A stretch of 42,046 bases of DNA, taken from positions 1 to 42,046 of the forward strand of contig CAMJGE010000017.1 in NCBI GenBank assembly GCA_946405145.1, in the 5' to 3' direction. Both the position numbers and the translations under genes were made by a program. Below the pieces are notes generated by a model. It was not told the DNA's origin. It saw nothing but the letters and a program-made list of their open reading frames with translations, and searched no databases. Shown here one piece after another: positions 648 to 38,648 of the stretch (position 1 is its first letter; each line of letters starts with the position of its first letter). Source of the DNA: an uncultured Prevotella sp. GTDB lineage: Bacteria; Bacteroidota; Bacteroidia; Bacteroidales; Bacteroidaceae.

Positions 648-738
648 ATTCGGAATTTATTGTAATTTTACAGAAAAATCGGAATAAAACTTTGTTGTAT
701 TCGGAATTTATTGTAAATTTGCAGAAAAATCGGAATAA
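648..738 (+). repeat. Tandem repeat around the ATPase promoter
   Basis: Two copies of a unit of about 40 bp start at 648 and 699 (period 51) and differ at only a few positions. Each begins ATTCGGAATTTATTGTAA and ends AAAAATCGGAATAA, so the heptamer TCGGAAT occurs four times, at 650, 679, 701 and 730 (spacings 29, 22, 29). The array spans the -33 region to the start codon, a layout expected for autoregulatory operators. Confidence 0.8.
691..722 (+). promoter_or_regulatory. Bacteroidetes-type promoter of the ATPase gene
   Basis: TTTG at 691-694, a 19-bp spacer and TAAATTTG at 714-721 match the Bacteroidetes consensus TTTG-N19-TAnnTTTG exactly. Transcription should start near 728, about 12 nt before the ATG at 740. 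This rules out the longer frame beginning at 692. The earlier repeat copy has a decayed version of the -7 box. Confidence 0.8.
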
Positions 739-739
739 C

Positions 740-19251: not shown

Positions 19252-19278
19252 ATGCGTTCCTTAATAAAAAAATCGGTT

Positions 19279-19287
19279 GCAAAGATA
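19279..19287 (-). promoter_or_regulatory. -7 box of the argD operon
   Basis: The complement reads TATCTTTGC, a perfect TAnnTTTGC, 28 bp before the argD ATG. No TTTG is present at the -33 position; that region carries the inverted repeat 19300-19319. It gives the separated argD half its own transcription start. Confidence 0.65.
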
Positions 19288-19299
19288 CGGCAAAATATT

Positions 19300-19319
19300 G
19301 AATAAACGCCACTTTATTC
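19300..19319. promoter_or_regulatory. Inverted repeat at the argD promoter, possible ArgR operator
   Basis: GAATAAA (19300-19306) and TTTATTC (19313-19319) are perfect inverted arms with 6 bp between. It lies just upstream of the argD -7 box, a position suited to repression. The same string TGAATAAA occurs on the leftward strand just upstream of argR (within 42023-42032) and resembles half of an ARG box. Assignment to ArgR is inference. Confidence 0.4.
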
Positions 19320-19382
19320 TATCTTTTTGCATAAAAAACGCTTTTCATGATATTTTTCTGCAAGTTTATACATAGTCCTCAT
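19314..19382 (-). CDS. Possible small ORF of 22 codons upstream of argD
   Basis: An ATG at 19382 opens a 22-residue basic frame (starting MRTMYKLAEKYHEKRF) ending at TAA 19314-19316. It begins 6 bp after the second TTCCC-GGGAA palindrome, an arrangement like that of the ATPase gene at 740, where repeats run up to the start codon. It could be the 5' stub of a lost repeat-controlled gene or chance. I do not recognise it. It ends before the argD promoter, so it is not an argD leader peptide. Confidence 0.25.
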   Translation of the reverse strand: MRTMYKLAEKYHEKRFLCKKIE

Positions 19383-19388
19383 GTTTTG

Positions 19389-19425
19389 TTCCCAGTGAGG
19401 GAATATTTGATTCCCAGTATGGGAA
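19389..19425. repeat. Two TTCCC-GGGAA palindromes 22 bp apart
   Basis: TTCCCAGTGAGGGAA (19389-19403) and TTCCCAGTATGGGAA (19411-19425) have the same palindromic arms and a 22-bp period, so both would face one side of the helix. They look like paired protein-binding sites. They lie downstream of the ATPase gene and upstream of the small ORF and argD. Confidence 0.7.
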
Positions 19426-19428
19426 TAA

Positions 19429-19460
19429 TTTGGGGCTTTAATGTTAGGTTTCACCCCAAA
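19429..19460 (-). terminator. Weak hairpin after the ATPase gene
   Basis: TTTGGGG (19429-19435) and CCCCAAA (19454-19460) could pair across an 18-nt loop, 14 bp after the ATPase stop. Read leftward it is followed by TTATT rather than a T-run, so termination is uncertain. Confidence 0.3.
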
Positions 19461-19474
19461 GTGGCGATTTCATT

Positions 19475-20662
19475 TTAGAAAATCAGCCTGCCAATATCCC
19501 ATTTAAGGAAGTCTTCTATGGGAATACCACCAGACCCAACAACAAGCGAATGAACAGGATGGAATTGCTGGCCAAACAACGGAAGACCGTTATTGCTAGT
19601 TCGTCGTCCACTTTTAACCTCTATAGCAATGAGTTGTTTATCGTAGTCTATGACAAAATCCACCTCGTCGTCTTTCTCTCGCCAGAAATAGAGTTTGTAG
19701 TCATACTCGTCTGCCTGATTCAGCAGATGCGCTCCTACAGCACTCTCCACCCAGCGTCCCCATAGATGAGGCGTTGTAAATGCTTTATTAAAAGTTACAC
19801 CACTCTGTACTGAGAAGAGTGCTGTATTGTAAACCATTAGCTTAGGTACGGAATTATACTTGCGTGCATTGTCTGTCGCATATTTCTGCAGACCACATAG
19901 AAGTCGAGACTCATCGAGAGTGGTAAGATAACTCGCTAACGTCGTCACATTGCCAGCATCCTGTAGTTGTCCCAACATCTTGTTCAGCGACAGCTCTTTG
20001 CTGGAATAAGCACATCCCAGTTCAAACAATTGCTTCATCAAGGCTGGTTTATAGATAATTTTCGTCCTCAGCACGTCTTTCTCTATTGCAGGAGCAACAA
20101 TGCTGTCCTTGATATATCTGCGCCATCTGCGTTCATCGTTAATATATGTGGCTCCTCCAGGATATCCACCAAAAAAGATATATTGGTCAATATCCATATC
20201 GAATGCCTCATGCATTTCTGCATAGCTCCAATGTGGCATTCTGATTAGTTCGTACCTACCAGCTAGCGATTCTGTAAGACCATCTTTCAATAGTAGCCTG
20301 GATGAGCCAAGGATAACCACTTTCATATTGAGGTCCTTGAACGTATCTTCATCCCATTCTTTCTTCACGGCCTCGCTCCAGTTGTCTATTTTGTGCACCT
20401 CATCAATCACAAGCAGATATTCCTTTGCTTGTGCCACCTTCATGCGAGCGCGTGCCGTAGCCCACATCTCATCAATCCAAGCCGTGTTGGTGTGGTCAAT
20501 ATTGTCAGCACTAACCAGCATATAGGGAATGTCTGTTTCCTGAAGCACCTGCTTCACCATAGTGGATTTGCCTACCTGACGAGGACCAGAGATAACCTGT
20601 ATCTTGTTTCTCTGCTCTGAGATTCTTGATTTTAATTCTTGAAATTGTGACCTTTTAAACAT
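19475..20662 (-). CDS. ATP-binding protein, AAA_14/DUF4143 family
   Basis: This 395-residue protein has a Walker A motif (GPRQVGKS, 26-33), a Walker B motif (LLVIDEVH, 83-90), the SSRLLL sensor-like segment and a DUF4143 C-terminal half (WGRWVESAVGAHLL, FWREKDDEVDFVID, IAIEVKSGRR). EVDF and EVKSG resemble a PD-(D/E)XK-like remnant typical of the family. Function is not established. The ATG at 20662 is chosen because a promoter (20682-20714) covers the longer frame starting at 20713. Four 22-bp repeats lie directly upstream. It is at the left border of the pilus island, next to the argD half of the arginine block. Confidence 0.87.
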   Translation of the reverse strand: MFKRSQFQELKSRISEQRNKIQVISGPRQVGKSTMVKQVLQETDIPYMLVSADNIDHTNTAWIDEMWATARARMKVAQAKEYLLVIDEVHKIDNWSEAVKKEWDEDTFKDLNMKVVILGSSRLLLKDGLTESLAGRYELIRMPHWSYAEMHEAFDMDIDQYIFFGGYPGGATYINDERRWRRYIKDSIVAPAIEKDVLRTKIIYKPALMKQLFELGCAYSSKELSLNKMLGQLQDAGNVTTLASYLTTLDESRLLCGLQKYATDNARKYNSVPKLMVYNTALFSVQSGVTFNKAFTTPHLWGRWVESAVGAHLLNQADEYDYKLYFWREKDDEVDFVIDYDKQLIAIEVKSGRRTSNNGLPLFGQQFHPVHSLVVGSGGIPIEDFLKWDIGRLIF

Positions 20663-20681
20663 AACTATTTGATTTTCCGCT

Positions 20682-20714
20682 GCAAAGATAAGCAAAATTC
20701 TCAAATCTTCCAAA
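20682..20714 (-). promoter_or_regulatory. Promoter of the second ATPase gene
   Basis: The complement carries TTTG at 20711-20714, a 20-bp spacer and TATCTTTGC at 20682-20690, an almost perfect Bacteroidetes promoter. The first 22-bp repeat lies between and over these boxes. Confidence 0.75.
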
Positions 20715-20781
20715 TAAAATTCTCAGATCTTTCAAACAAAATTCTCAAATCTCATAATCAAAATTCTCAAATTTGACAGAA
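20694..20781. repeat. Four 22-bp tandem repeats upstream of the ATPase
   Basis: Units start at 20694, 20716, 20738 and 20760, exactly 22 bp apart. The conserved core is AAAATTCTCAAATCT (second unit CAGATCT, fourth CAAATTT), with variable last 7 bp. Two helical turns per unit would place all cores on one face. The first unit overlaps the spacer of the ATPase promoter, suggesting cooperative repression, perhaps by the ATPase itself or a partner. Confidence 0.85.
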
Positions 20782-20812
20782 ATGCTAGCTCTTTTAGGGA
20801 CAAAGTACAAAC

Positions 20813-20847
20813 AAAAAGCACTCCAGTAGTAGGTAAACTGGAGTGCT
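20813..20847 (-). terminator. Intrinsic terminator of the pilus operon
   Basis: Leftward AGCACTCCAG, an 11-nt loop and CTGGAGTGCT form a perfect 10-bp stem followed by a T-run (complement of 20813-20817). It lies 48 bp after the stop of the last fimbrillin-like gene. Confidence 0.85.
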
Positions 20848-20894
20848 GCCGATGTGCATTAGCACGATATAGCCAAGGCGTTAGGTTGTGTAAG

Positions 20895-22853
20895 TTAGGG
20901 ATCAATTGTCAGGTTTGTACTAACTGAGTAAATATAAGAGAGATTGACATCACCTTCTTTAGATATTGTCTTGTTATTGCCATTCAGAGTAAATTGCGCT
21001 GGTATATTACCAGAATTCCATGTTTCAGCTGAAACAGTGAAATTATCAGATACACGGTATTTACTGCCATCTATATTATAGACATTGTTAAGTAATGTGG
21101 CTAATTCTGTCTGGCTATCGATGGTGGCATCAAATATGTTTGCTGCAGCCATTGTATTACTATTATTGCTGGAATGATTGCCTATAGTGTTTGCAGCAGT
21201 TGTGGGCCATGAGTTGCTGTAGGCACGAAGCTGGTGGGTTTCAGCATCAGGCTTTCCATAAACTATATTCTTAAATTTATCGGCCTCCTGCAAAAGTGTG
21301 ATACCATAATTGAAGGTGTTGCCAGACACGCGGCCTACTGCCTTACCTACGATACCACCGCCTACGCCAGTTCCATCCACTCTGGCATTTGCAGTACAAT
21401 TTTCAATTACAGGCATACTGCCGTTGTCAGAATGATAAACAGATTCCTTTGCGATGCCTCCCACAACATCACTTGTACCAGAAACAGGCAGGTTGGAGGT
21501 ACAGGTCGAAATGGTGCCAGAATTAGTTACCACCAGTCCAGCTTTTGTTGCCTTGGCTGTAGAGGTGCGATTCACAGTGATGTTTTGGATGGTGCCACGA
21601 TTGGTTTCTGCGATAGCCGCATCCACAGTTCCATCGCCACCCACACTGATGGTTCCACCCACCAACTTGCCTCCTACACCGATGGTGGAGAAGATGCGAT
21701 GAGTAGTGGTGAAGGTCTTGTCGTTCATCTTCATCGTGCAGTTCAGTGGTTGAGATGTCCAAGCTACACCATCCTCCAAGTTGATACTCTCTGTGATGTT
21801 AGCGATATTTCCTGCTTTGTTGTTCTCTGAAGTAAGGAAGGTTAAAAGGGCTGCACGTGTACCAATATCTGTTGTGGTTCCAATCTGCCCCTCGCTATCC
21901 ACAGTTGCAGGAATGTCTGTAACATCCCAATTAGTTACTTGTGCTGCCATTTTAACTTGGTAAATGTTGCCATCGCTACCTCGACTTAAGGTTGCCGTGA
22001 TGGTCAGATGTTGACCTGCGGAGAGGTTGTATTTGCCATCATTATTGTCATTGCTGGCAGAGAATGTGAATACCTGATTCGACAACTTGATTTCAGCGAT
22101 AGTTTTTGCATAGGTCTGGTAAGCGTATGGCTCCACAATCGCTGTATATTGCGTTGTGCTTACACCAGAAGCATCATCATAGTCAATAGTTGTATTTGTT
22201 GCCCAAGGCGAGATTTCTAAGTTTGAGGTACCATAACTATAAATCTTCGCTTCAAGATAATTTGTATTTGCCAAGTCGTCACGACTTACACCCTCACCAG
22301 CTTTCAGAATAACTGTGATGCGTGAACGTAAGTGTTTCAAGTAGAGACGTATCTTTTTGCTGTCAGGAGGAGACACTCCATCAGTTTCATTAGCAGCCTT
22401 CCAATTCTTGGAAGTACGATAATTTAAGGCTTCTATATTATCTGCTGTCGATGCAATGGCTCCATAACCAAGCAGCTTATCCTCTGCGAAAAATTTTGTT
22501 TGAATTGTTTGATCTGTTGCTAATGTTGCTGAGCCAGCTGTCGCCTTAAAGCCATAAGCATTGATGTTATCTGGCCAATAGAGTTGTAAGCCGGATGCAA
22601 CAGGGGCAACCACAGCAGATTGATACATCTCATAAGTAAATGTATAGTATGCTAAGGCATCATGATAATCGCTCACATCCGTTCTCGTCATAGCTCTACC
22701 AGACAAGTAGGGCGCGAACAATACAGGATCGCCAGGTTTGATCTCATCATCAGCAACTGATGAGGTCAAATCCTCGCTACACCCTGTCATCGCCAACGCC
22801 AAGCAGAGCAGCCATATGATTCGTGTAAATCTATATTCTTTCATCTCATTCAT
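20895..22853 (-). CDS. Fimbrillin-like lipoprotein with C-terminal beta-helix, candidate pilus tip adhesin
   Basis: This 652-residue protein has a lipobox (MTGC, Cys25), an AMTRTDV motif with Arg57 as candidate maturation site, one fimbrillin module (about 40-315, with LYLKHLRSRITVIL and VTNWD, Trp309) and then glycine-rich repeats (about 355-520; VGGKLVGGTISVGG, NRGTIQNITV, VVGGIAKES, GVGGGIVGKAVGRVSG) that resemble GLUG-type beta-helix repeats. It is last in the operon and overlaps the preceding gene by 8 nt. A fimbrillin stalk domain plus a different C-terminal domain suits a tip or adhesin subunit; that role is inferred. The ATG three codons downstream is an alternative start. Confidence 0.8.
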   Translation of the reverse strand: MNEMKEYRFTRIIWLLCLALAMTGCSEDLTSSVADDEIKPGDPVLFAPYLSGRAMTRTDVSDYHDALAYYTFTYEMYQSAVVAPVASGLQLYWPDNINAYGFKATAGSATLATDQTIQTKFFAEDKLLGYGAIASTADNIEALNYRTSKNWKAANETDGVSPPDSKKIRLYLKHLRSRITVILKAGEGVSRDDLANTNYLEAKIYSYGTSNLEISPWATNTTIDYDDASGVSTTQYTAIVEPYAYQTYAKTIAEIKLSNQVFTFSASNDNNDGKYNLSAGQHLTITATLSRGSDGNIYQVKMAAQVTNWDVTDIPATVDSEGQIGTTTDIGTRAALLTFLTSENNKAGNIANITESINLEDGVAWTSQPLNCTMKMNDKTFTTTHRIFSTIGVGGKLVGGTISVGGDGTVDAAIAETNRGTIQNITVNRTSTAKATKAGLVVTNSGTISTCTSNLPVSGTSDVVGGIAKESVYHSDNGSMPVIENCTANARVDGTGVGGGIVGKAVGRVSGNTFNYGITLLQEADKFKNIVYGKPDAETHQLRAYSNSWPTTAANTIGNHSSNNSNTMAAANIFDATIDSQTELATLLNNVYNIDGSKYRVSDNFTVSAETWNSGNIPAQFTLNGNNKTISKEGDVNLSYIYSVSTNLTIDP

Positions 22854-23958
22854 TATTCAATGGCCAGTTTGTTATCGTTACGTCAGCAAGTCGCACCAGC
22901 TCTGATTGCGCTCTGTCAGCCACCTGACCTCGAGCAGCTGCTGGTGTCGTGTTGCTAATTTCCAGATTATAGACATATTGCTTACCACTTGCCAGATCTC
23001 TTTGTGCTGCTTCCGTAATCTCAAAAGTCGCTGTATGTGTACTCCAAGTGATACGGATTGCTCTCAGATGTCCAAAGGCAATGGCGTTAAAAGATTTCAG
23101 ATAGCCAGTAGCAGGTGATGCCATCGCGAACATATCGAAAGACGTGCCCCATTTGTTGACTGCTAACTGCTCATCAGTGTAAGTATCGAGATTAATAGTA
23201 TTGCCCGTAGTGGCTGTAATCGTTCCATCAGTATTCAACTTGGTATAGACATTGCCTTCTGTCGATACGCCCAGCAGCTCCACTTTCGTAATCTGCTCAG
23301 CTGTGATGTTAGTTGAATTACTTGTCGCATTCTTCAGGTTGACCTGTATCAGTGAGAACTGGTGTTGGAAGTTCAGTGTTACGCTGTTATTGGCAGGGGT
23401 GCCATCAGAGGGATCCTGAATATCCACAGCACGGATGGGGTCTGGCTGATCTGTGATTGATGCTTTCGTTCCTTTGGTGAGGTCGTAAGTGTTGTGTCCT
23501 GCATCAGACGTACTTTGATAGATTATCTGTGAAGTCGTTGATTTCAGTGCGTGGTTATTTGCGATGGCGACGAAAGCGTGGTTTAAGCGGTTCTGCCAAT
23601 AGAAGGGCGTACCAGCAGCAGAAAAGGCTTCATTCTTATAGGTGGCATTGCCTGCATCATCGCTCACCTCAAGCCAGGCTTTGGTGATCTTACCATCCGT
23701 CAGGTCGAAAGCACTATAATTATTATCGTTTTTATTAGAATGATAATACATCGTGCATACGAAATGACTCCATTTTGCCATTGGTGATGAGGTTGGTGTC
23801 CTTGTGATGGCTTTATCTTGAAGCCCCACTGAGAAGAGTATTGGGGTGCCTACAGGGTCATAGTCATCATGACTGTTACCTGTCGTGATGTCATCGCCTG
23901 AGCAGCTTGCCAGCCACAGCACGAAGCCTAAATACAATATGTTTTTTATCTTCAACAC
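22846..23958 (-). CDS. Fimbrillin-like lipoprotein, single module
   Basis: The 370-residue protein has a lipobox (LASC, Cys19), PILFSVGL, then KAITRTPT with Arg53 as candidate protease site. LNFQHQFSLIQVNLK is the conserved module core, and GKQYVYNLEI with VTITNW (Trp365) ends the module. It matches the Mfa-like fimbrillin pattern with one module, unlike the four two-module proteins encoded upstream. The start codon appears to be GTG at 23958, as no in-frame ATG is nearby and a stop lies just upstream. It is probably a minor structural subunit. Confidence 0.82.
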   Translation of the reverse strand: MLKIKNILYLGFVLWLASCSGDDITTGNSHDDYDPVGTPILFSVGLQDKAITRTPTSSPMAKWSHFVCTMYYHSNKNDNNYSAFDLTDGKITKAWLEVSDDAGNATYKNEAFSAAGTPFYWQNRLNHAFVAIANNHALKSTTSQIIYQSTSDAGHNTYDLTKGTKASITDQPDPIRAVDIQDPSDGTPANNSVTLNFQHQFSLIQVNLKNATSNSTNITAEQITKVELLGVSTEGNVYTKLNTDGTITATTGNTINLDTYTDEQLAVNKWGTSFDMFAMASPATGYLKSFNAIAFGHLRAIRITWSTHTATFEITEAAQRDLASGKQYVYNLEISNTTPAAARGQVADRAQSELVRLADVTITNWPLNNE

Positions 23959-23996
23959 GTCAATTCTTCATTTTGATGTTTGTATCCACTTAGCAC

Positions 23997-26147
23997 TTAC
24001 CACTCCAACGTCGCAGTGCCGCTACCAGCCACAGCATCCCAGTCCTTCACAAGTACATGCGCCAGAACCCTCTCCTTCTCAATATGGATGGTGTAGGTGT
24101 AGTTCTTGCCTCTCTCCCAAGCTGTGATTTTATTAGAACTTCCATCTACCACACAGTCTTTGAGTGGGATGCTATAGACAGCATTATCATAGTTTGGCAA
24201 CGTAATGACTACCTTGGCATTTTCATCAAAGGTTTGAGGAATCACGAAAAGGTTCGTGATAGGATAAACCTGAGCAGGGATAGCAGAAGAAGCACCTGCA
24301 GCGGTAGTATTCTTTGTTCCACCAGTGATGTTGCCAGTCTCGATAGAGATGGTTCCATCTGTATAAAGATTGGTGATAGCTATGGTGGCATCAGTGAGAT
24401 TAACCTTCGCATTAGTTGGTAGCACAGTTGCATCATCAGTCGTTTCAAGATTGAAAGTCACCTTACTCATTGCATGCTCAAAGGCGATAGGTACACCTCC
24501 CTTACGTGGTGGAATTGCTGCACTACGTGCATATACTGTCTCAGAATATCCTTTATGTTTAGGAGTTGTTCCCCAAAGAATATCGTTTGCAGCTGTGGTT
24601 CCTTGCGATACAGCAGTTCCTTTATCAGAATCGTATGTTCCTACAGAAGAAATATTATTTACGATGTTTGGTGCACTTCCTGTACTACTATTGAACTTTG
24701 CTAACGCGCGGAAATAGTAGTTGTCATTTATATTAGGCCAATAGATAGCAGGATTGTTATTCCATTGGTCATTTGCAGGATCATCGTAGTTTTGGAACGT
24801 TGAGACAGTCGCAAAAACGTATGCAGTATTCGTGCGTTCAGCAGGTGTGTCATAGCTATTGTTATGGACAACTCTGAATAGACAGAACGATGAACCTGCT
24901 GTAAAGTGATTCTTATCAACTGCGACAACATTAACGTCAGTAATACCGGAAACAGCTTCATCATCCATAATCAAATTCGTATCATCATCATTAAGTACTA
25001 TCTTTCCCTCTCCGCTGGCATTTACATCAGTCCAACCAGTCAGAGTGGCGTGAGCCTGAACTGCTGATTTCTTGATATTGACATCAAGATGATAGTGCTT
25101 GCCTGGTTGAGTGATAACGTAATGAGTTCCTTCGCCGCCACCTATCTGATTATCACCAGAATGACCTGAGCCCCAATGGCTATTATCCAGCATATCGCTG
25201 GTGATATTTAGAGTGTAGTCGTTCCTATGGGCATTTGTGATATCCAATAGCTTCTGCCCTTCTAATAGCTTTGTTCCTGGGGCGACAATAGCATAGTAAG
25301 TACGTACTAATGCATTTCCACTAGGATAAGGTTCGCCAGCATACATCCTGACATTTTTAATATTGCCAGCAGTTTCTTGTATTAGTGGAAAAAAAGCAGC
25401 AGGAGTTGAAGGTGTCCATTGTGTTACAGTGTTCATACTATTCAATGTGAGAATAGTTGATTCCAACGGATTGGTGGATGCAATAAAGCCATCTTGTGCA
25501 GTCACTGTAACTGATATCTGGCTCATGGCGTGGGAGAAAGCAAGGTTCAATGTGCTGTGATCTGCATCATGTGAAGCTCCGTGAGAATATGTTGCTTTAT
25601 TAATTTCTGGAGCCCAAAGAAGATCGGCATTCTGGACCTTAGTCTCTGAAGTTTGATCTATATAATCATTCGTAAAAGTTCCAATTTTCCAGCCTAAGAC
25701 ACCTGTTGATTCTGTTAGAGATGTCTTATTATTTGTCTCTCCACCATTGAAGCAATAGGCATATAGAGAATGCAACCCATGTCCTTCTGTTCTCACATCT
25801 GTAGTAGCATCGTTTGAGTTGCTGAAATCATCCCAATAGGAATCAGAAGTGAAGCTAGAACCATTATATGTAATGGTGACAAACTTTTTGGCATATTCAG
25901 CATCTACTACGGAAAAACTGCCTAGTGATCCTCCATTCGTATGGCGAACGTATGCTTTCAGCTGATCTCCATTGGCGAATGTTGAGCCTGAGGCTCTGGT
26001 TTGGGCGCGGCCTGTGCTGAGGGTGGCGTTTATCAGCAAGGGAGTCTTTTCCTCGCTTGTCTGCGTGTTGGAAAGGTCTGCTTCCTTAGCGCATCCTGCC
26101 AGAAGCAGAACCAAACTGATATATAATAATCTTCTTTTCTTCATCAT
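23997..26147 (-). CDS. Two-module fimbrillin-like lipoprotein
   Basis: The 716-residue protein has a lipobox (LAGC, Cys19) and GRAQTRASG (Arg51). Module 1 has LAFSHAMSQISVTV and ends GKHYHLDVNIKKSAVQAHAT with Trp372; module 2 has IAFEHAMSKVTFNLETT and ends GKNYTYTIHIEKERVLAHV with Trp703. Spacing of the two end tryptophans is about 330 residues, as in its operon neighbours, showing internal duplication. It ends LEW, an aromatic C terminus. It probably is an accessory or main pilin; the gap to the previous gene is 22 bp. Confidence 0.82.
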   Translation of the reverse strand: MMKKRRLLYISLVLLLAGCAKEADLSNTQTSEEKTPLLINATLSTGRAQTRASGSTFANGDQLKAYVRHTNGGSLGSFSVVDAEYAKKFVTITYNGSSFTSDSYWDDFSNSNDATTDVRTEGHGLHSLYAYCFNGGETNNKTSLTESTGVLGWKIGTFTNDYIDQTSETKVQNADLLWAPEINKATYSHGASHDADHSTLNLAFSHAMSQISVTVTAQDGFIASTNPLESTILTLNSMNTVTQWTPSTPAAFFPLIQETAGNIKNVRMYAGEPYPSGNALVRTYYAIVAPGTKLLEGQKLLDITNAHRNDYTLNITSDMLDNSHWGSGHSGDNQIGGGEGTHYVITQPGKHYHLDVNIKKSAVQAHATLTGWTDVNASGEGKIVLNDDDTNLIMDDEAVSGITDVNVVAVDKNHFTAGSSFCLFRVVHNNSYDTPAERTNTAYVFATVSTFQNYDDPANDQWNNNPAIYWPNINDNYYFRALAKFNSSTGSAPNIVNNISSVGTYDSDKGTAVSQGTTAANDILWGTTPKHKGYSETVYARSAAIPPRKGGVPIAFEHAMSKVTFNLETTDDATVLPTNAKVNLTDATIAITNLYTDGTISIETGNITGGTKNTTAAGASSAIPAQVYPITNLFVIPQTFDENAKVVITLPNYDNAVYSIPLKDCVVDGSSNKITAWERGKNYTYTIHIEKERVLAHVLVKDWDAVAGSGTATLEW

Positions 26148-26169
26148 TTACCTTTAGCTTAAAAGTTAA

Positions 26170-28311: not shown

Positions 28312-28316
28312 ACGCT

Positions 28317-30500: not shown

Positions 30501-30531
30501 ATTCTAATATTTGAGTCGTTTATTCCAACTG

Positions 30532-32901
30532 TTAATTCTCGAGAGAAATAGTACCCAGGTCGCCTTCTACGCTTTCCCAAGATAGCACTGCTGCCGTGAT
30601 GTTTGAGACACCAGCCTGCTTGAGGGTAACGGTGTAGTTGTAGGTGTAGTGGGGATACCAGGAGGTAATGCTATAAAGAGAGCCTGATGACAGGGTATAA
30701 GGATTGACCAGATTTGTGGTAGTTACCGTTGCCGTGCATGTGCTCAGGTCTTTTACGAGATATTGGTTGCCATCTGGTGTTGTGATGCGAAGGCCGATCG
30801 TGCCTGAAGAAGCTCCTGTACCCCAAGAAAGTGCCTGAGGAACGATTCCGAAGGAACTGCCTGTAACTTGAGCTGGAGTAGTGCCAGATTCAGCAGTGTA
30901 GGTGCCATTAGTGAAAGTAGCAGCTGCCGTCCTGCTTGTGCTGGTTGTTGAAACAGCACCTGTGCCCATCAGCACCTTGCCATCAGGCAGGAAGTTTAGG
31001 ACTTCGACTTTTGTCAACTGTTGGCCTTCTGGCTTGGTGCTATCGAAAAGCGTCACCTTGTCTGAGCTTGTTGTGGTCTTCACATTCACGAAGATCTGGC
31101 TGGTCATGTGGAAGAGTAGCATGTTGATTTGGCTATTGGTGGCGCCAAGGGCTGGTGAAATTTGGTGCGTAGGAGATTCCCCTGTGCCTGTATTATCAAA
31201 GCCAGTTGCGGTAGTATAAGTCAGCTTCGCAGAAGATTCAATATTCTTAAATGGTGCGCCCCAGACGTAATCCCTATAGCTACTTCCTGTAATAGTGCCT
31301 GATGTGATGGCAAAGTAATCGCCATTCGTGGCATCAGTCGTGATGTTGGCATGACCACTGGCACTTTCTCCAGTTCCTGCTGCGCGGAAATGGTAGTAAG
31401 TCAGGTTGTTGGGCCAGAACCAATCAGTGGTCTTCCAATGGTCTGTATCGTAACTCTTGGTAGCATAGGTGCTTGAATAGCCTGTTGTCCAATCATAGTT
31501 GGCAGTTGTTGTACCTGTGATGTAATCTGTGGTAGTCTTCCCCGCGCGATATAGATCGAACTTGGCTCCTTCTGTTGACCCCAGCTTTGTACCACGATCC
31601 TCGAAGGTGAAGGTGCAATAGACATTATTGGGCGTTGCGTCCGAAGAGTTGACTGTTTCCCAGTCGAGGATGGCAGCTGTGACATTTTCGATACCCTTCT
31701 TAGAGACAACAAGGTTGATGACATAGTGCTTGTTGGCCTCAGTAGTCGTGAAGGTGCTGACGTTATCACGGATCGCATTAGCAATCTGAGTACCTGTAAC
31801 ATAATACTTGGCGTTGTCGATCTCAAATTCAATCACATTGGCTGTTGTCGAAAGGAGATTCGTGCCAGGCAGGACGTAGGCTTCGAGCTGACGAGTGGTT
31901 TGTGCAGCAATAGATGCAGTCACCTCATCCAACAGGGTGATATTGGCTGAGGTCGTCTCAGACCAAGCGCCATTGCTGACATCCAGTTTACCGCTAGTGG
32001 GGAAGCCTTTGAGGGTGATGTTCTGAGTCGCAGCATCGTTATCTTTTGTCCATGCGAAATCTGTGGCTGAGGCGTTGTTGAATCCAGAGCCTTCTTTCAA
32101 TACGATCGTGAGCCACGAGAGGGCGTGCTTGAAGGCGAGATGTCCCTTGTCGAACTGGCCTACGGTGACTGAAGCGTCACTAGGATCCTTGGATTGCCAG
32201 ATCATCCGGCCTAATTGCATGCTTTTTGCCCAGGCGGATCCATCCCATGTCTGACGATAACAGCCTTTATTGACTGTTTCTGCGGATCTGATATTGTTGC
32301 TGTAAACCAGATCTTCCTTAGAGCGGGTGGTGGCATCCTGAGTGGTAGAAACTTGCCAATCAATCTTGGTATTTTCTGTAGCCACTGTGTACCAGCCAGG
32401 GGAAACGGTTGTGGGACTTGCCTGATCGAGCATGTTGTCAGCAATAATATTATCTGTAACACTCTTATTCGGCACAGCTACTGCATAGACGGTCAGTTTG
32501 GAGTCTCTGCCAAAGGCATCATCCCAGTAACGCTCCTGACCAGCAGCATAGGTGAGATGGGAGTGGGTGCCTGCCAGACCATAACCTGTATTGCAGGCAT
32601 CAGCAACAGTGGTCTCAGCACTGGCTGTAGCCACAACTTGGGCGAAACGGACATCTGTGGCAGCGGCACCTTGGGCCTTGATGCGCATCACGACCTTGGT
32701 GTTGGCAGTGAATCCTGAACGGGTCATGGCACGGGTTGACATCGCGCTACCCTCCTGTGAGAAGGCTATCAGCGTCTTGTCACCTTCAGGTGTAGGTGTT
32801 GTTCCTGAGGAGGTGGACGAGGCCTCGTCAGAGCATGCCATCAAGGCCACAAGTGCAAGGGCTGTCAATGTGTAGTTGAGATATTTCTTCATATCTGTCA
32901 T
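30532..32901 (-). CDS. Two-module fimbrillin-like lipoprotein (largest subunit)
   Basis: The 789-residue protein has a lipobox (LMAC, Cys23) and two possible cleavage sites, STRAMTRSGF (Arg57, Arg61). Module 1 has LAFKHALSWLTIVLK and ends KHYVINLVVSKKGIENVTA with ILDW (Trp414); module 2 has MLLFHMTSQIFVNV and ends NYTVTLKQAGVSNITA with VLSW (Trp775). It is a paralogue of the next gene's product. The second ATG (32892, MKKYLNYTLT) may be the true start. Size and position suggest a structural subunit of the fibre, by inference. Confidence 0.83.
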   Translation of the reverse strand: MTDMKKYLNYTLTALALVALMACSDEASSTSSGTTPTPEGDKTLIAFSQEGSAMSTRAMTRSGFTANTKVVMRIKAQGAAATDVRFAQVVATASAETTVADACNTGYGLAGTHSHLTYAAGQERYWDDAFGRDSKLTVYAVAVPNKSVTDNIIADNMLDQASPTTVSPGWYTVATENTKIDWQVSTTQDATTRSKEDLVYSNNIRSAETVNKGCYRQTWDGSAWAKSMQLGRMIWQSKDPSDASVTVGQFDKGHLAFKHALSWLTIVLKEGSGFNNASATDFAWTKDNDAATQNITLKGFPTSGKLDVSNGAWSETTSANITLLDEVTASIAAQTTRQLEAYVLPGTNLLSTTANVIEFEIDNAKYYVTGTQIANAIRDNVSTFTTTEANKHYVINLVVSKKGIENVTAAILDWETVNSSDATPNNVYCTFTFEDRGTKLGSTEGAKFDLYRAGKTTTDYITGTTTANYDWTTGYSSTYATKSYDTDHWKTTDWFWPNNLTYYHFRAAGTGESASGHANITTDATNGDYFAITSGTITGSSYRDYVWGAPFKNIESSAKLTYTTATGFDNTGTGESPTHQISPALGATNSQINMLLFHMTSQIFVNVKTTTSSDKVTLFDSTKPEGQQLTKVEVLNFLPDGKVLMGTGAVSTTSTSRTAAATFTNGTYTAESGTTPAQVTGSSFGIVPQALSWGTGASSGTIGLRITTPDGNQYLVKDLSTCTATVTTTNLVNPYTLSSGSLYSITSWYPHYTYNYTVTLKQAGVSNITAAVLSWESVEGDLGTISLEN

Positions 32902-32904
32902 TTT

Positions 32905-34062
32905 TTAGAGTTCTATGGGGATATCTGTGGTCTGCACCTCGTCCCAAGGCAGTATCTCACAGGTCTCGAGTACGATCTCGTGGCCGTGGATGTTGGGGAT
33001 GCGCAGGAAATAAACATATCGTTTCTCTGGTTCCCATGTGAACAGGTCGCCTGAGGCTTCCGACTTGTTGAGGCTGAGCAACTTGTCATAATTGAACGTC
33101 TCTTCATGGTTATCTCCGTCGATTGTCGTAATCTGAAGCTTTATGCGGATCTTCAGATCCTCGTGTGGAATCTGCTGCAGATAGTCAGGACAGAGGTCGA
33201 TAGCATCTTCATGACGCAAGTGCTGACGGAGGTCTATAGGCACCAGCGTGTTGTTGTCGTCAGGCTCCTGATACAAACCATGCTTCAGAAGTACGAATTC
33301 ATCAGAGGTGGTATCGCCAGAGAAGGTGCCATTGAGGAGTCCCTGCGCGGTGGTAGCCGTATAGGTCTTGCTCTCAGAGATAAAACCTGTCTTCACAACG
33401 GAAATGGTGAGGGTGTCGATCTGTGCCACATAGGCAGGATCAGTGGGCTGGGGATCGTCGAGGTAAATACGGAAACCTACTTTCGAGATGAGGTGATGGA
33501 AAGGCATCTTCACTTCACTGATGTCCACATCCTGACGGCTGACCTGGGCCACCACACAAGGTTCGCTTTCAGCTGGCGTGAGGTTATAGACTTCGTTGAA
33601 GTAAGTCTGAGCCTTGAAAGGTTTGGCAGGGACATTGATGGTGATCTTGTCAGCTTCGATGGTGGCACCTTCGAGATAGGGTGATACGGCATGGAACTCA
33701 TAGGGGAAAGCGCTCAGGTCCCAATAGCGCTGAATCTGAGAGCCGATACCCACATAGTCCCATTTAGAGGTGACGGCATTGTACGCCACCTTGTAGCCAT
33801 CCATGACGTTCTGCTGGGTTGTGTTGCCAAAGTTCTTCCAGACACCCACCTTGAAGTCGGTGTAGAAGGTTTCCAGCGACGCACTGCGGGTGGTAGCGAC
33901 AGGGGAGGAACCGAATACCATGGGCTGGCCATTGTCAGCAGCAGGTTTCTCTGGCTCTTCCACCACAACCACAGGCTTCTCAGGCAACGTGTCGTTGGAG
34001 GAGGAGCAGGCTGCGATGAACAGGGCTACTGCAAGGGGCCATATGTGACGATAGTGATACAT
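32905..34062 (-). CDS. Fimbrillin-like lipoprotein, single module
   Basis: The 385-residue protein has a lipobox (IAAC, Cys19), a proline/valine-rich linker (EKPVVVVEEPEKPAADNG), MVFGSSPVATTRSASLETF with Arg59, and the core MPFHHLISKVGFRIY (186-200). The C-terminal part ends EKRYVYFLRIPNI and ILPWDEV, the module-end pattern. It resembles the product of the preceding 478-residue gene in the linker and in the TRS/AxSLET stretch. It is 3 bp downstream of that gene's stop, so tightly co-transcribed. Confidence 0.8.
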   Translation of the reverse strand: MYHYRHIWPLAVALFIAACSSSNDTLPEKPVVVVEEPEKPAADNGQPMVFGSSPVATTRSASLETFYTDFKVGVWKNFGNTTQQNVMDGYKVAYNAVTSKWDYVGIGSQIQRYWDLSAFPYEFHAVSPYLEGATIEADKITINVPAKPFKAQTYFNEVYNLTPAESEPCVVAQVSRQDVDISEVKMPFHHLISKVGFRIYLDDPQPTDPAYVAQIDTLTISVVKTGFISESKTYTATTAQGLLNGTFSGDTTSDEFVLLKHGLYQEPDDNNTLVPIDLRQHLRHEDAIDLCPDYLQQIPHEDLKIRIKLQITTIDGDNHEETFNYDKLLSLNKSEASGDLFTWEPEKRYVYFLRIPNIHGHEIVLETCEILPWDEVQTTDIPIEL

Positions 34063-34065
34063 TTC

Positions 34066-35502
34066 TTATTTGACAAAATATTCTGATGAATTCTCTGTGT
34101 AATCTCCAAGGGTGGCAGCATCGAAGACGATCGGGGAGAGTGTCTGGTCTGTGATCTTAAAGGTATAGACATACCTCATATTGGGTTGCCAGACGGTGAT
34201 AGGGGTGGGCTGAGAGGGCGTCTCAGCAGTGGCTGACACGATGATGCCAAAGGCTGGCACATGGACAGCGGCATCATTGACGGTGATCACTTCCTTGTTG
34301 TCCTCCGCAATGAGACGATAGGAGATGTGGAAGGTGAAGCCTGTTGCGCTGGTGTCCGGCTGGGCCACAGGATAGTAGATCGTGGGCGAATAGCTGTATT
34401 CCTGCGTGCCAGTGGCTGTCTTCTCCTGGATGACCTGATGCGTGGTCGTACCAAGCCCTGCAAAATCCGTGAGGTTGGATGGTACCAGACTGGCTGTGGA
34501 CAGGTCGGCCTGTGGAATCTTGAATATCAGGGGACGCTGAACGGCTGTGCTGCCAGTCCAGTTGGGGGTGTAGGTGGGAGCGGCCGTGGCCTCGGCAAAG
34601 GTGATGGTGGCTCCCTGGGTGGTATAGTAACTGCCTTTGGTGTAGGCAGTCTCTGATTTGATGGCTGGCTCTGCCTGGATGCCCTTCGCTGAAGAGGAGA
34701 GGTCGGTCATCTCCACTTTGTAACCTGGTATGTCCTCATAGAAGCGGATGAAGAGTTGGGCGCCCATATGCCTGAAGGGAACGGTGACGGTAGCCAGGTT
34801 GGCATTCGTGGCCTGAACGCCTGCATACATGAACTCGGACAGGGAACGGTCGAAGGTCAGATAGGCGGAGTCGAGCGGCTCATCATACCCGTCACGGATG
34901 GTGGAGGCCCCTGCAAATGTCATGGTGCTGGTAGTGGCGCCCTTGGTGAAGGTGACATCTGCGTCGTAAGGCGCATAGCAATAGAAGTTGGTCTTGTCAT
35001 AGGCACGATCCCAATACTGGAGGGCCTGGGTGGGATTGGCCGACATATAGGCGGTCTGGTCTGCCTTATAGAACCCAGCCGTTCCGCTGTAGGTGTATTC
35101 CGTCTTACCCAGTTTCTCGTAGAACCAAGGGGAGGCCTTTCCTAGTGTGATGTCTGCCGTACTGGCCCAGGTGGTGGCTCCCGTCTTGTCATAGCCTATG
35201 GACAGACCATCGGAATAGCCCACAAGGTAGTTGTTCATCTGCTCGACATCAGCCTGGCTTTTCAAACTCTGGACCGCCCATGCCCAGACGCCAAAGTTAT
35301 AGTGTCTGAGGGTTTCCAGACTGACTGCGCGGGTGATGTTCTGTTTATGGACACTAAAGCCGATGGGCACCTGGGTCTCCTGTATGACGACAACGGGCTC
35401 CTTCACCACGTCGTCCTTGCTGCAGCTCAGCAGAACTGTGGCAACGGCTAACGCGATGATGTAGCCTCTCGTGATCGTTCTTATGTCTATCTTCTTACTC
35501 AT
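34066..35502 (-). CDS. Fimbrillin-like lipoprotein, single module
   Basis: The 478-residue protein has a lipobox (LLSC, Cys27), a linker KEPVVVIQETQVPIGFSVHKQN, then ITRAVSLETLRHYNFGVW with Arg58 as candidate cleavage site. The core is VPFRHMGAQLFIRFYED, and the end NMRYVYTFKITDQTLSPIVFD fits the module end. It aligns in pattern with the next gene's product. As second gene of the operon after the DUF5119-like gene it may be an anchor-proximal or main subunit; which one is undetermined. Confidence 0.8.
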   Translation of the reverse strand: MSKKIDIRTITRGYIIALAVATVLLSCSKDDVVKEPVVVIQETQVPIGFSVHKQNITRAVSLETLRHYNFGVWAWAVQSLKSQADVEQMNNYLVGYSDGLSIGYDKTGATTWASTADITLGKASPWFYEKLGKTEYTYSGTAGFYKADQTAYMSANPTQALQYWDRAYDKTNFYCYAPYDADVTFTKGATTSTMTFAGASTIRDGYDEPLDSAYLTFDRSLSEFMYAGVQATNANLATVTVPFRHMGAQLFIRFYEDIPGYKVEMTDLSSSAKGIQAEPAIKSETAYTKGSYYTTQGATITFAEATAAPTYTPNWTGSTAVQRPLIFKIPQADLSTASLVPSNLTDFAGLGTTTHQVIQEKTATGTQEYSYSPTIYYPVAQPDTSATGFTFHISYRLIAEDNKEVITVNDAAVHVPAFGIIVSATAETPSQPTPITVWQPNMRYVYTFKITDQTLSPIVFDAATLGDYTENSSEYFVK

Positions 35503-35517
35503 GAATTTGCTTGCTGT

Positions 35518-36693
35518 TTAAAAACCACCCTCCCAGATGACATCGTCGTAGTCCTCGACAGTGGGGATGAACAGACTGCCAGAGGTGGGCAGGGGCTCGT
35601 CTGGCTTCTCGGGATCGTCAGGATCGACAGGCTTGGGGGGATCGGGCTCCTCCACCTCTCCACAATCGATGGTGAGGGTGATGACGCCACCTTGCGTCTG
35701 CTCCTGAAGCTGATCAGTGACCTCGACGGCAAAGGTCTTCACGGCTCCGTTGTCGAAGACGAGATCGAAGAGGAGATGGTTGGACAAGTCGCTCCTTCCG
35801 TCGCAGAGGCCAAAGGTGTTGAACTTCCCACCGATGATGTCGCACTTCTTACCATCATACTCCTTGTCGTGTTCCATGGTGGTGGTGAGATAGACGACGG
35901 TGGGGGTGGAATTGGTGAGACCTGTCATCAAATCCTTGGCACTGGCCATGCCTGAGATGGCACCGTTGCCATTAACATCCTTGATGCGTCCGTCGTTGTT
36001 GAGTAACACGATCTGGATCAGATATGTATAGACCACAGGACGCAGACTGCTCTTGATCACCTTGCTATAGGTGTTCGTCTTTTCATCGTAGATGTAGTCG
36101 CTCGGATTGTTGGAGATATATACTTCTTTGGTGTAGGCCGAATAGAATACTTCTGGCTGATTCTTTATGCCGATGATACCATCTGTCTCAATTAGCTCAT
36201 CAGCATCAATCAGACTCAAGACAGCACGCGTCAGTCCTTTTGTCCCTGTGGTGGTGGCTATCACTGCATCTTTATCCTCCTGGATCACCACGACCTGGGA
36301 ACCATCTTCCGACTCAATCTCACTCCAAAACAGGAGGTCGTAATAGCCAAAGTGGAAGCGGCTCTGGAAACTGGTGCCAATGATAGAGAAGGCTTCTACA
36401 TCTGTATGGGGTGCTTCAGGATTCTCGCCGTTGTAGTAACGGCGTACTTGGAATTCGTTTGGCGCCTCGAAAGTTGGAGTCTCCCACGTGGGATCAAGTG
36501 GGGTGTCCCATCCGAAATCCCAGTCGGTGGATACTTCAGTCTCTATCGCCATCTCCAGCTCCATCTGTATGGTGGGCTCCTCTTTCAGGGGCGTCACATC
36601 AGGCGACGACTCTGAGCAACATGAAACCAGTTGCAGAGAGAGAAACATTACTATTGTATGGGCGATAAGCGCAAAGTATAGTTTCTTTTCCAT
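35518..36693 (-). CDS. DUF5119-like lipoprotein, first gene of the pilus operon
   Basis: The 391-residue protein has a signal peptide and lipobox (LVSC or VSCC, about residue 20), no TR cleavage motif, and no fimbrillin core. The middle (RRYYNGENPEAPHTDVEAFSI, FHFGYYDLLFWSEIE) recalls DUF5119 proteins of Bacteroidetes surface-structure clusters; this is from memory. A Pro/Asp-rich linker (about 348-370) precedes a short tail. The ATG at 36693 is chosen because the -7 box (36734-36742) overlaps the longer frame. Lacking the maturation site, it may be the membrane anchor of the pilus, as FimB/Mfa2 are in Porphyromonas; this is inference. Confidence 0.65.
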   Translation of the reverse strand: MEKKLYFALIAHTIVMFLSLQLVSCCSESSPDVTPLKEEPTIQMELEMAIETEVSTDWDFGWDTPLDPTWETPTFEAPNEFQVRRYYNGENPEAPHTDVEAFSIIGTSFQSRFHFGYYDLLFWSEIESEDGSQVVVIQEDKDAVIATTTGTKGLTRAVLSLIDADELIETDGIIGIKNQPEVFYSAYTKEVYISNNPSDYIYDEKTNTYSKVIKSSLRPVVYTYLIQIVLLNNDGRIKDVNGNGAISGMASAKDLMTGLTNSTPTVVYLTTTMEHDKEYDGKKCDIIGGKFNTFGLCDGRSDLSNHLLFDLVFDNGAVKTFAVEVTDQLQEQTQGGVITLTIDCGEVEEPDPPKPVDPDDPEKPDEPLPTSGSLFIPTVEDYDDVIWEGGF

Positions 36694-36733
36694 GTTTACT
36701 ATATTAGTAATCATTCCTATCATCTTTTCAATT

Positions 36734-36742
36734 GCAAAAATA
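36734..36742 (-). promoter_or_regulatory. -7 box of the pilus operon
   Basis: The complement reads TATTTTTGC, matching TAnnTTTGC, about 40 bp before the ATG at 36693. The -33 region has no TTTG at the right distance, which fits a promoter that needs an activator. Operator-like repeats lie directly upstream. No other -7 box was noticed in the short gaps of the nine-gene operon. Confidence 0.65.
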
Positions 36743-36763
36743 GAAAGAAATATGAGATAAGGG

Positions 36764-36813
36764 TTTGCAAATGGTAACAAATGACTAACGTTTTGCAAAT
36801 TGTTAGTCGATTG
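36764..36813. promoter_or_regulatory. Predicted operator of the Kelch-AraC regulator at the pilus promoter
   Basis: Positions 36783-36813 match 38613-38643 with two differences in 31. Arms GACTAAC and GTTAGTC flank a centre containing TTTGCAAA. A partial extra site, TTTGCAAATGGTAA, lies at 36764-36777, 28 bp from the equivalent part of the main site and next to the -33 region. The main site ends 40 bp upstream of the -7 box. Confidence 0.65.
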
Positions 36814-38550
36814 CTATTCTTCTGTTTTTGTCTGGGAAGATTGCTGTTTTTTCCAATCGCCTGGCGTCTGACCTGTTAAAGCCCTGAATGTACGGAAGAA
36901 AGAGGTGTCATTCGCAAAGCCGGAATCGATACCAATGGCGTTTGCTTTCTGATCGGGGTATTTCAGCATCAGTTGCTTGGCGTATTCGATGCGATAGCCA
37001 TTAACATACTGTGTGAAGTTGCAGCCTTTGATGAGGTTTACGCATGCAGAGATGTTGTTTCGATGCGTACCTATTTGTTTGGCTAAGGCTGATACCGTGA
37101 GATCGCTGTTGAGGAACTGCTTTTCTTCAACTACCAGATGGTGGATGCGTTGCATGAGTTCTGCATTGGCAGCTTCCTTGGGGTCAGGTGTCTTAGGCGT
37201 TTCGTCCTCTTTCTCAACCGTCTGCTCCTGCTTGGGCTGTCTGTAAAAGAGGTAGATACAGATAATGGCAACTGCCAACAAGAGGATGCTGCCTAACAAC
37301 CAGGGGACTGGACTGAGGAATGAGGTGGCAACGAACTCGTCACTACCGAAATGGAATAGGAATACGTGAGCCAGTGGGTAGAAATTGTGGCTGGGATTCT
37401 CTTTCTTCCCAGTGCCGCCCGTCAACAGCAGATTGCCTTGAGGGGTGATCAGTGGTGAGGCATCGACAAACTCTGGGATTGGGTCGGTATAATAGAGCGT
37501 GACGGGGCAGGGCTTGCCTTCTGCCATAGGACTATAGTCGATGCACAGGATGTATATATGGCTGCTGGTCTGATGAATGGAATCGTTGCCCATGATGTAT
37601 CCTTTCTGAGCCTTTCGATCCACAAGAATCTGGGAATAATAGATAATGGTGTTCTCCTGAAACTTCGTGGGGATGGGACCGGTGGTAGGTACTAATGAGA
37701 ACTTTATGCCATCGGCTTTGGCTATGGCCAACTGTCCCTCTTTGTTCTTCACAGGAAAGAGGTAGGAGTAGATGCCTTTTGCTTCGTCGCCGATAAAACT
37801 GTCGTCGTTGTGGATAGAGATGTGGAGATGGGTCGGTTTCCAGGTCTCGAAAAGTGGGTCGGTGAATGGTTCGCCTTTCAGGCGATCGACGATAATGGTG
37901 TCGAAATCATTGCCTTTATAACCCTGTCCGCCGAAGATGATCACATCATCAGGGGCGATACGGAACACGTTCGTTAAGGTGCGCTGTTGCGATACCTTTT
38001 TGACGTTGGTAAACGTTATGTCGCCATCGTAGATCTCAATGGCATCCTCGTGATACCAGTTGCCTGTAATCACCACCTTTCCATGATCCAATTCTACCTG
38101 GGTATGCGAGGCGCGCTTGGTGTCCAGACAGCCAAAACCGTCGAAGGTGTGGGTCTTCGGATCGTACATTTCCACCTCGTGACTCTGTCCGATGCCTAAG
38201 CCTCTCTCAAAACCACCACTCAGTAAGACCTTGCCTGATTTCAGGATCAGGGCCGAACCTGCATCGTGGGTATAGACCATATCCATCTGGTGCCAGGCGC
38301 CGTCCTTGAAATATTCTGCTGTGCGGGTGGGGACAAAACCTGAAGTGTGTCCACCAAAGACAGTAATCTCGCCGTTCACGCATAAAGTATGGTGGCCTGA
38401 ACGGGGTGTGTTCAGACTGGGTAATTGCTCATGAACGATCTTAACAGTCGGACAGACCGCTTGTTGCTGTCTGTCTGTGCTACCTTTCTGCGCCAACACG
38501 TTTAGTGGTGCAAAAAGACAGAGGAATGCGATGATGGCTATTCGGTTCAT
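36814..38550 (-). CDS. Membrane-spanning Kelch-propeller AraC-family transcription regulator
   Basis: The 578-residue protein has a signal peptide (1-20, cleavage after VLAQ), a periplasmic Kelch-type propeller (about 40-400; repeated GHHTLCVNGEITVFGGH, AGSALILKSGKVLLSGGF, DDVIIFGGQGY, GNLLLTGGTG), one transmembrane helix (about 414-436), an acidic linker and a C-terminal AraC DNA-binding domain (about 480-570; DLTVSALAKQIGTHRNNIS, then SGFANDTSFFRTFRALTGQTPGDW). It resembles a hybrid two-component sensor without kinase and receiver: the signal would pass directly through one membrane helix. It lies directly upstream of the pilus operon in the same direction, and shared palindromes stand before both promoters, so activation of the pilus genes and autoregulation are likely. 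The ligand is unknown. Confidence 0.88.
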   Translation of the reverse strand: MNRIAIIAFLCLFAPLNVLAQKGSTDRQQQAVCPTVKIVHEQLPSLNTPRSGHHTLCVNGEITVFGGHTSGFVPTRTAEYFKDGAWHQMDMVYTHDAGSALILKSGKVLLSGGFERGLGIGQSHEVEMYDPKTHTFDGFGCLDTKRASHTQVELDHGKVVITGNWYHEDAIEIYDGDITFTNVKKVSQQRTLTNVFRIAPDDVIIFGGQGYKGNDFDTIIVDRLKGEPFTDPLFETWKPTHLHISIHNDDSFIGDEAKGIYSYLFPVKNKEGQLAIAKADGIKFSLVPTTGPIPTKFQENTIIYYSQILVDRKAQKGYIMGNDSIHQTSSHIYILCIDYSPMAEGKPCPVTLYYTDPIPEFVDASPLITPQGNLLLTGGTGKKENPSHNFYPLAHVFLFHFGSDEFVATSFLSPVPWLLGSILLLAVAIICIYLFYRQPKQEQTVEKEDETPKTPDPKEAANAELMQRIHHLVVEEKQFLNSDLTVSALAKQIGTHRNNISACVNLIKGCNFTQYVNGYRIEYAKQLMLKYPDQKANAIGIDSGFANDTSFFRTFRALTGQTPGDWKKQQSSQTKTEE

Positions 38551-38562
38551 TCTTTGTTGGCT

Positions 38563-38571
38563 GCAAAGGTA
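38563..38571 (-). promoter_or_regulatory. -7 box of the Kelch-AraC gene
   Basis: The complement reads TACCTTTGC, a perfect TAnnTTTGC, 12 bp from the ATG at 38550. The expected transcript has a very short leader. The -33 position has no TTTG, as at the pilus promoter. Confidence 0.65.
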
Positions 38572-38608
38572 CTAAAAAGCAAAGGATGGAACAGTCATTG
38601 CGTAAAGG

Positions 38609-38642
38609 AATCGACTAACAATTTGCAAATTGTTAGTCGATT
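38609..38642. promoter_or_regulatory. 34-bp perfect palindrome, predicted operator upstream of the Kelch-AraC gene
   Basis: A perfect palindrome without central mismatch: arms AATCGACTAACAATTTG and complement. Its end common to both copies lies 41 bp upstream of the -7 box, against 40 bp for the copy at the pilus promoter. It also follows the argC stop by 6 bp, so it could fold as a hairpin in the argC transcript, but no T-run follows. Confidence 0.7.
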
Positions 38643-38648
38643 GGTTGT

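Follow-up and report, generated by a model that had tools for sequence, protein, structure and literature searches.

The 42,046-nt contig of an uncultured Prevotella sp. analysed here (C17; the window is this whole contig, and all coordinates refer to it) carries a fimbrillin-type pilus operon and a regulator gene between argC and argD in an arginine/proline gene cluster. In Prevotella-type bacteria the argC-argD gap is probably a site of repeated insertion, and this block is one of the inserts found there, its contents likely being exchanged as a unit and predicted to be under the control of the regulator. The site was found in empty and filled forms with differing contents, the operon has changed behind a kept regulator in the closest relatives, and the predicted operators lie at a fixed spacing from the promoters.

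The argC-argD site and its contents

The genus was surveyed in 200 genomes, and an argC-argD pair was counted when both genes share a contig and strand. The genomes were mostly drafts, with many argC and argD genes at contig ends; the source genome is itself a 2.74-Mb draft, 85% complete. Among the matches listed, 117 pairs were found (source genome included), with argC and argD separated by ≤300 bp in 81, by 300-1000 bp in 11 and by >1 kb in 25, the window being one of the last group. Gaps of >1 kb were present in 15 of 40 pairs with an argC identity of ≥82% and in 10 of 77 below that, and argD was inverted relative to argC in four further genomes. Outside the genus, argD was located ≤450 bp after argC in 10 of 12 genomes having both genes, the remaining two having one gap of 1.4 kb and one reverse order, indicating that adjacency is ancestral. 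With the two genes lying side by side in the majority of relatives, the block is an insertion. An earlier sequence-only reading of this DNA had stated that the two genes are neighbours in relatives, which agrees with these counts. The island is, however, no peculiarity of the source genome, 25 of the 117 pairs being >1 kb apart with differing contents.

Neighbouring gene pairs of the same operon were used as control gaps for the insertion rate. In 39 loci of the first relatives, the argC-argD gap exceeded 1 kb in 8 of 28 cases measured, versus 0 of 138 for six other operon pairs (Fisher p 2.6e-7).

The contents of the gaps, as assigned using Pfam, vary widely. The window carries fimbrillins, whereas the gap encodes Big_2, BACON and esterase-like proteins in G020, BspA leucine-rich repeats and a PIG-L protein in G022, CBM48 in G218, an HU-HIG protein and a dockerin-type protein in G018, a C10 peptidase with leucine-rich repeats in G006, CotH in G044, glutamine synthetase in G023, SusC/SusD proteins in G151, an Eco57I-type restriction protein in G142, redoxin proteins in G188 and G182, and a type IX sorting tail protein in G135. 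Surface-protein genes make up most of these contents, with signal peptides or lipoboxes recognized by a crude rule in many gap proteins, but some contents are not surface proteins. Of the 25 gaps >1 kb, 10 have a regulator gene at their argC end, as do the two closest relatives, G311 and G288. In some genomes (e.g. G019, G040, G041 and G002) the argC match is interrupted near residue 110, suggesting an insertion in the protein, and G094 and G186 each have two argC copies on different contigs, due to either duplication or contamination.

In the window, argR, GNAT, argG and argC were found on one flank of the block, and argD, proC, XRE-cupin, AMP-binding acyl-CoA synthetase, proB, proA and argF genes on the other. 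The 19.4 kb between argD (18118-19251) and the argC stop (38649) includes an AAA_14/DUF4143 gene, nine lipoprotein genes (f1 to f9) and a gene for a Kelch-transmembrane-AraC regulator. All of these genes are on the minus strand, confirming the gene order, the shared leftward direction and the position of the block given by the sequence-only reading. Rfam and tRNA scans of the window gave no match. The features are:

38649-39614, minus: argC, left-hand border gene (Pfam semialdehyde dehydrogenase domains; the start is the first Met of argC homology)
38644-38648, minus: ACAAC directly 3' of the argC stop, argC-side insertion border, common to the empty sites of G031 and G122
38609-38642: perfect palindrome of 34 bp, predicted operator 1 of the regulator (core 38612-38639)
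38564-38571, minus: TACCTTTG, -7 box serving the regulator gene, with the operator centre 54 bp away
36814-38550, minus: regulator gene, encoding a signal peptide, Kelch beta-propeller, one transmembrane helix and AraC-type helix-turn-helix (HTH) (Pfam, structure model, PDB)
36782-36809: imperfect copy of the palindrome, predicted operator 2, upstream of the pilus operon
36735-36742, minus: TATTTTTG, -7 box serving the pilus operon, with the operator centre 53 bp away
36704, minus: end of the DNA match to G311 and G288, in the first codons of the lead gene
35518-36714, minus: f1, lead gene, lipoprotein with a weak DUF5119 match
34066-35502, minus: f2, lipoprotein, Mfa_like_1 slightly under the cut-off
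32905-34062, minus: f3, Mfa_like_1 fimbrillin
30532-32901, minus: f4, Mfa_like_1 fimbrillin
28317-30500, minus: f5, Mfa_like_1 fimbrillin
26170-28362, minus: f6, Mfa_like_1 fimbrillin (an inner ATG is probably the true start)
23997-26147, minus: f7, Mfa_like_1 fimbrillin
22846-23958, minus: f8, Mfa_like_1 fimbrillin
20895-22853, minus: f9, lipoprotein, no Pfam match
20694-20768, minus: four GAGAATTTT repeats at 22-bp spacing, upstream of the ATPase gene
19475-20662, minus: AAA_14/DUF4143 ATPase gene, also present with its upstream repeats (to ~20889) at the argD end in G311
19280-19335, minus: argD promoter block, TTTATGCAAAAAG ... TATCTTTG, argD-side border, common to empty sites
18118-19251, minus: argD, right-hand border gene

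The borders were defined by comparison with the empty sites of G031 and G122, in which AACAAC and three further bases come after the argC stop, and TTTATGCAAAAAG and a TAnnTTTG box then lead into argD. Of these, the window retains ACAAC 3' of argC, together with TTTATGCAAAAAG and the box upstream of argD. Thus, the borders are ACAAC and the argD promoter block, and not the palindrome on one side and the repeats and ATPase gene on the other, as had been supposed. A -7 box precedes argD in 6 of 15 closely related empty sites, indicating that argD kept its promoter and did not gain it, two possibilities between which the sequence-only reading had not chosen. The box was also seen by eye near argD in 24 of the 25 filled sites in which the argD side was inspected, G229 being the exception. 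As the gap precedes the argD promoter, an insert would not silence argD, and insertions may be tolerated at this site since argD has a promoter of its own.

The GC content at third codon positions (GC3) was also calculated, a check on GC and codon use having been proposed with the sequence-only reading. GC3 is 0.57-0.70 in the flanking arg/pro genes, 0.35-0.52 in f4-f9 and the ATPase gene, and 0.59-0.68 in f1-f3 and the regulator gene. Only f4-f9 and the ATPase gene therefore differ from the flanks, whereas f1-f3 and the regulator gene resemble them, and GC content was rejected as proof of foreign origin.

Operon change behind a kept regulator

The nearest argC in the named collection was 93% identical, in rumen-type assemblies of Prevotella and Xylanibacter. 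G311 (argC 97%, argD 98%) and G288 (argC 95%, argD 96%) were the two closest relatives found; they carry islands of 50.0 and 9.7 kb, respectively, at the same place. In both, the DNA match to the window extends from argC over the regulator gene, the two operators and the two promoters into the lead gene, whose start codon is included, and ends at 36704, within the first codons of that gene. On the argD side, the match resumes at 20889 (ATPase gene) in G311 and at 19373, before the argD promoter, in G288. Between these points each carries a six-gene lipoprotein operon. The two six-gene operons are 45-84% identical to each other gene by gene, and their products share at best 38% identity, over 58 residues, with the proteins of the window. 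The sequence-only reading had held that a fimbrillin block at the same place in most close relatives would refute it; the two closest relatives do carry such a block, but its operon is a different one.

In G311, phage-like genes (minor tail, DUF2586) and a reverse transcriptase gene lie between the operon and the ATPase gene (L290, L296, L297), possibly forming a diversity-generating element. A BACON protein is encoded in the same gap. The G288 regulator gene (L292:1424-3062) is split into three reading frames, reflecting either decay or an assembly error.

In the window, a lipobox was recognized by eye at the N-terminus of all nine f1-f9 products. Six of the nine score over the Pfam cut-off for Mfa_like_1 and one is slightly under it (25.1 vs 27 bits); the remaining two have a weak DUF5119 match (22.8 vs 27) and no Pfam match. 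The nine lipoproteins may build a surface fibre. The Mfa2/FimB-type anchor family (PF08842) was not matched in the Pfam scan of the island proteins, and a diverged anchor is possible. No block-wise copy of the island was found elsewhere in 398 genomes using the best two candidates per genome, a search that may miss copies. DNA matches in these genomes were to the regulator or ATPase genes, or else were short stretches of the operon at 64-75% identity.

The AAA_14/DUF4143 gene with its four GAGAATTTT repeats (19475-20889) is a separate unit. DNA relatives of this unit at 76-85% were found in other genomes, the copies in G094 and G220 being on contigs that do not include argC. Copies of GAGAATTTT at 22-bp spacing were present in five of seven ATPase-unit loci checked, with a spacing of 44 bp in a sixth. 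A second AAA_14/DUF4143 gene (692-1993, plus strand) has no GAGAATTTT repeats nearby. Two TTCCCnnnnnGGGAA units lie between the ATPase gene and argD (19389-19425), of which the first read is kept in G311 and the second only partly.

The regulator and its predicted operator

The regulator of 578 residues was modelled (predicted local distance difference test score, pLDDT, 86.6) as a beta-propeller (35-400), a helix (416-436) and an AraC-type domain from residue 457. The top PDB matches were Kelch propellers. Pfam identified Kelch and HTH_18 only, histidine kinase and receiver domains not being found, and an NCBIfam scan gave just sub-cut-off HTH matches. The family is large: of 7997 candidates that were scored, 1687 homologues reached E 1e-20 or better.

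A dyad, GACTnnC...GnnAGTC, whose half-sites are spaced 19-20 bp apart, was found upstream of the regulator gene and again upstream of the operon. The motif (≤2 mismatches) occurs at these two places only in the source genome (control 0). As the palindrome recurs inside the island and lies at a fixed distance from both promoters, it was assigned as the predicted operator. Scoring of dyads relative to the -7 boxes of 45 regulator loci gave a sharp peak at 53-55 bp: dyads scoring ≥8/10 were present at this spacing in 20 of the 45, compared with 0, 0, 0, 0 and 1 at five other spacings and 0 in 20 shuffles. A stricter motif gave 17 matches beside regulator genes, every one of them 51-56 bp upstream of a -7 box. 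In the 200 genomes, 31 exact operator sites were found, 20 of them within 300 bp of a listed regulator gene. In many species the dyad is located after the regulator gene and before the payload promoter.

The spacing is consistent with an activator, and the regulator is predicted to switch on the pilus operon from the inverted repeat. The Kelch propeller would sense something in the periplasm, and the dimeric HTH would activate the operon from the inverted repeat 53-54 bp before the -7 boxes of the regulator gene and operon. In G018 (L093) and G020 (L092), the regulator gene starts 5-8 bp downstream of argC and lacks its own -7 box, and is therefore probably co-transcribed with the arginine genes. 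Such a placement would tie surface-gene control to arginine supply.

The palindrome might instead be the transcription terminator of the arg operon, being directly after argC, able to pair with itself, and followed by a run of T in G035 and G022. This is highly improbable, as it recurs inside the island, the 17 stricter matches all keep their distance from a -7 box, the dyad signal is lost at all other spacings, and in many species the dyad is found between the regulator gene and the payload promoter. The palindrome was rejected as either terminator or border on account of its recurrence upstream of the pilus operon and the fixed distance to -7 boxes.

Probable route of exchange and comparison with known systems

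Remnants of the C-terminal part of argC were found on the far side of the payload, towards argD, in two genomes, covering residues 249-325 in G218 and residues 283-309 in G022 (E 4e-5). In 54 genomes, distance correlations were 0.40 for argC-argD, 0.50 for argG-argC and 0.64 for argD-proC, and r was 0.81 for argG-proC across both, so that argC and argD fit one another, and the neighbouring genes, less well than argG and proC fit each other. A Pfam scan of the 11 island proteins, small overlapping frames not included, matched neither integrase nor transposase families; a TniB match of the ATPase was weak and below the cut-off. End repeats were not seen in the window, and the other islands were not searched for them systematically. 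The argC remnants, the argC and argD correlations and the lack of a recombinase family favour homologous recombination in the flanks, and exchange probably occurs in this way. DNA taken up with argC or argD sequence would replace the former gap contents, an incoming argC with its cargo being joined into the old argC, and the regulator and nine-gene operon would be exchanged as a unit through the flanking genes. A bolder proposal, put forward tentatively, is that the argC-argD gap is a genus-wide socket for surface genes. The resident Kelch-AraC regulator, its inverted-repeat operator and the beginning of the lead gene (its first codons) would serve as a docking module, so that whole pilus or adhesin operons exchanged behind it by a single crossover would arrive already under control.

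A tree of 45 regulators placed the 13 arg-site copies in several positions, with eight changes of site, at least four of them forced by well-supported branches. Shuffles gave a mean of 11.3 changes, and 4 of 500 were as low as eight. The tree indicates repeated entry into the site, or departure and later return, together with a degree of local inheritance. This bears on the possibility that the regulator and operon entered the gap once in an ancestor, with vertical divergence and loss accounting for the rest. The clustering of arg-site regulators, seen in the low number of changes and in the single clade of arg-site copies from G022, G218, G198 and G035, is consistent with such a history, as is the presence of the same regulator at the same place in the two closest relatives. 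However, it is unlikely given the forced changes of location, payload families that are wholly different between species, and empty sites in near relatives with 92-93% argC identity. In addition, the regulator at the site in G020 (argC 94%) is just 44-46% identical, and an 85% copy in G025 is on a contig that does not include argC. On the basis of the tree, a single ancient insertion was rejected as the full explanation.

A site-specific mobile element integrating after argC could also carry the block, as the borders are sharp to a few bases at the argC end and likewise at the argD promoter, and phage-like genes lie inside the same gap in G311. This is very unlikely, since contents and end genes vary between species, shared end repeats were not found, and the swap in the closest relatives begins inside the lead gene and not at the end of the island. 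The candidate was rejected as no recombinase family was found in the 11 island proteins scanned.

Several observations weigh against a recurrent site exchanged through its flanks and controlled by the regulator. A regulator gene directly after argC was not found at the search threshold in 15 of the 25 separated pairs, and argC remnants occur on the argD side in only 2 of the 88 loci examined, with none in the window. The distance correlations mix genes of different rate and come from a sample enriched for filled sites. The dyad is missing at the preferred spacing from 25 of the 45 regulator loci, several of which are near-copies of one another, 11 of the 31 genome-wide sites have no listed regulator gene nearby, and a backwards control pattern gave 10 matches in the 200 genomes. 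Covariation of the operator core with the HTH sequence was not supported, as 913 of 1000 permutations were as good, and single cases may be due to misassembly of draft genomes.

The argC-argD site is a fixed chromosomal address at which uncultured rumen and gut relatives of Prevotella change surface genes, and pilus types could be read from metagenomes by walking from argC. The regulator and operator are a testable pair, and the spacing rule could predict targets for a large family of membrane AraC regulators. Turnover of hotspots via flanking core genes is already known; in the literature searched, mostly outside subscription journals, no report was found of the argC-argD site or of the regulator-operator pair, as predicted here.

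In pneumococcus, capsule loci are exchanged between conserved flanking genes. The argC-argD site is similar in that a surface locus would be swapped via recombination in the flanks, but here the resident regulator, operator and start codon stay, the change being confined to the operon that follows.

According to Oliveira et al. 2017 (PMC5635113), hotspots of horizontal transfer that lack an integrase turn over through recombination in the core genes on their flanks. As in those hotspots, differing contents lie between one and the same pair of core genes, and no integrase was found; the distance correlations and the two argC remnants point towards more recombination in the flanking genes than in their neighbours. 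The hotspots of that study are within species, whereas the argC-argD site recurs across species of a genus, and differs further in having one regulator family at one end, in 10 of 25 filled sites and two further relatives.

The regulator resembles the SusR-like and hybrid two-component system (HTCS) regulators of Bacteroides, as described in PMC3878776, in being a membrane-spanning sensor with a periplasmic part and an inner DNA-binding part, encoded beside its targets; HTCS proteins also share the AraC-type HTH. Unlike HTCS proteins, it has a Kelch propeller as sensor and no detected histidine kinase or receiver. The published SusR-like and HTCS operators are direct repeats with long spacers, whereas the half-sites of the predicted operator here are inverted and 19-20 bp apart.

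The operon itself resembles the fimbrillin (type V) pilus operons of Bacteroidales, for example the mfa operon of Porphyromonas (PMC5954841), in being a row of lipoprotein genes with Mfa_like_1 domains. It differs in its nine genes, of which several contain two or more Mfa_like_1 stretches, in having no matched Mfa2-type anchor, and in being located inside an arg operon under a Kelch-AraC regulator.

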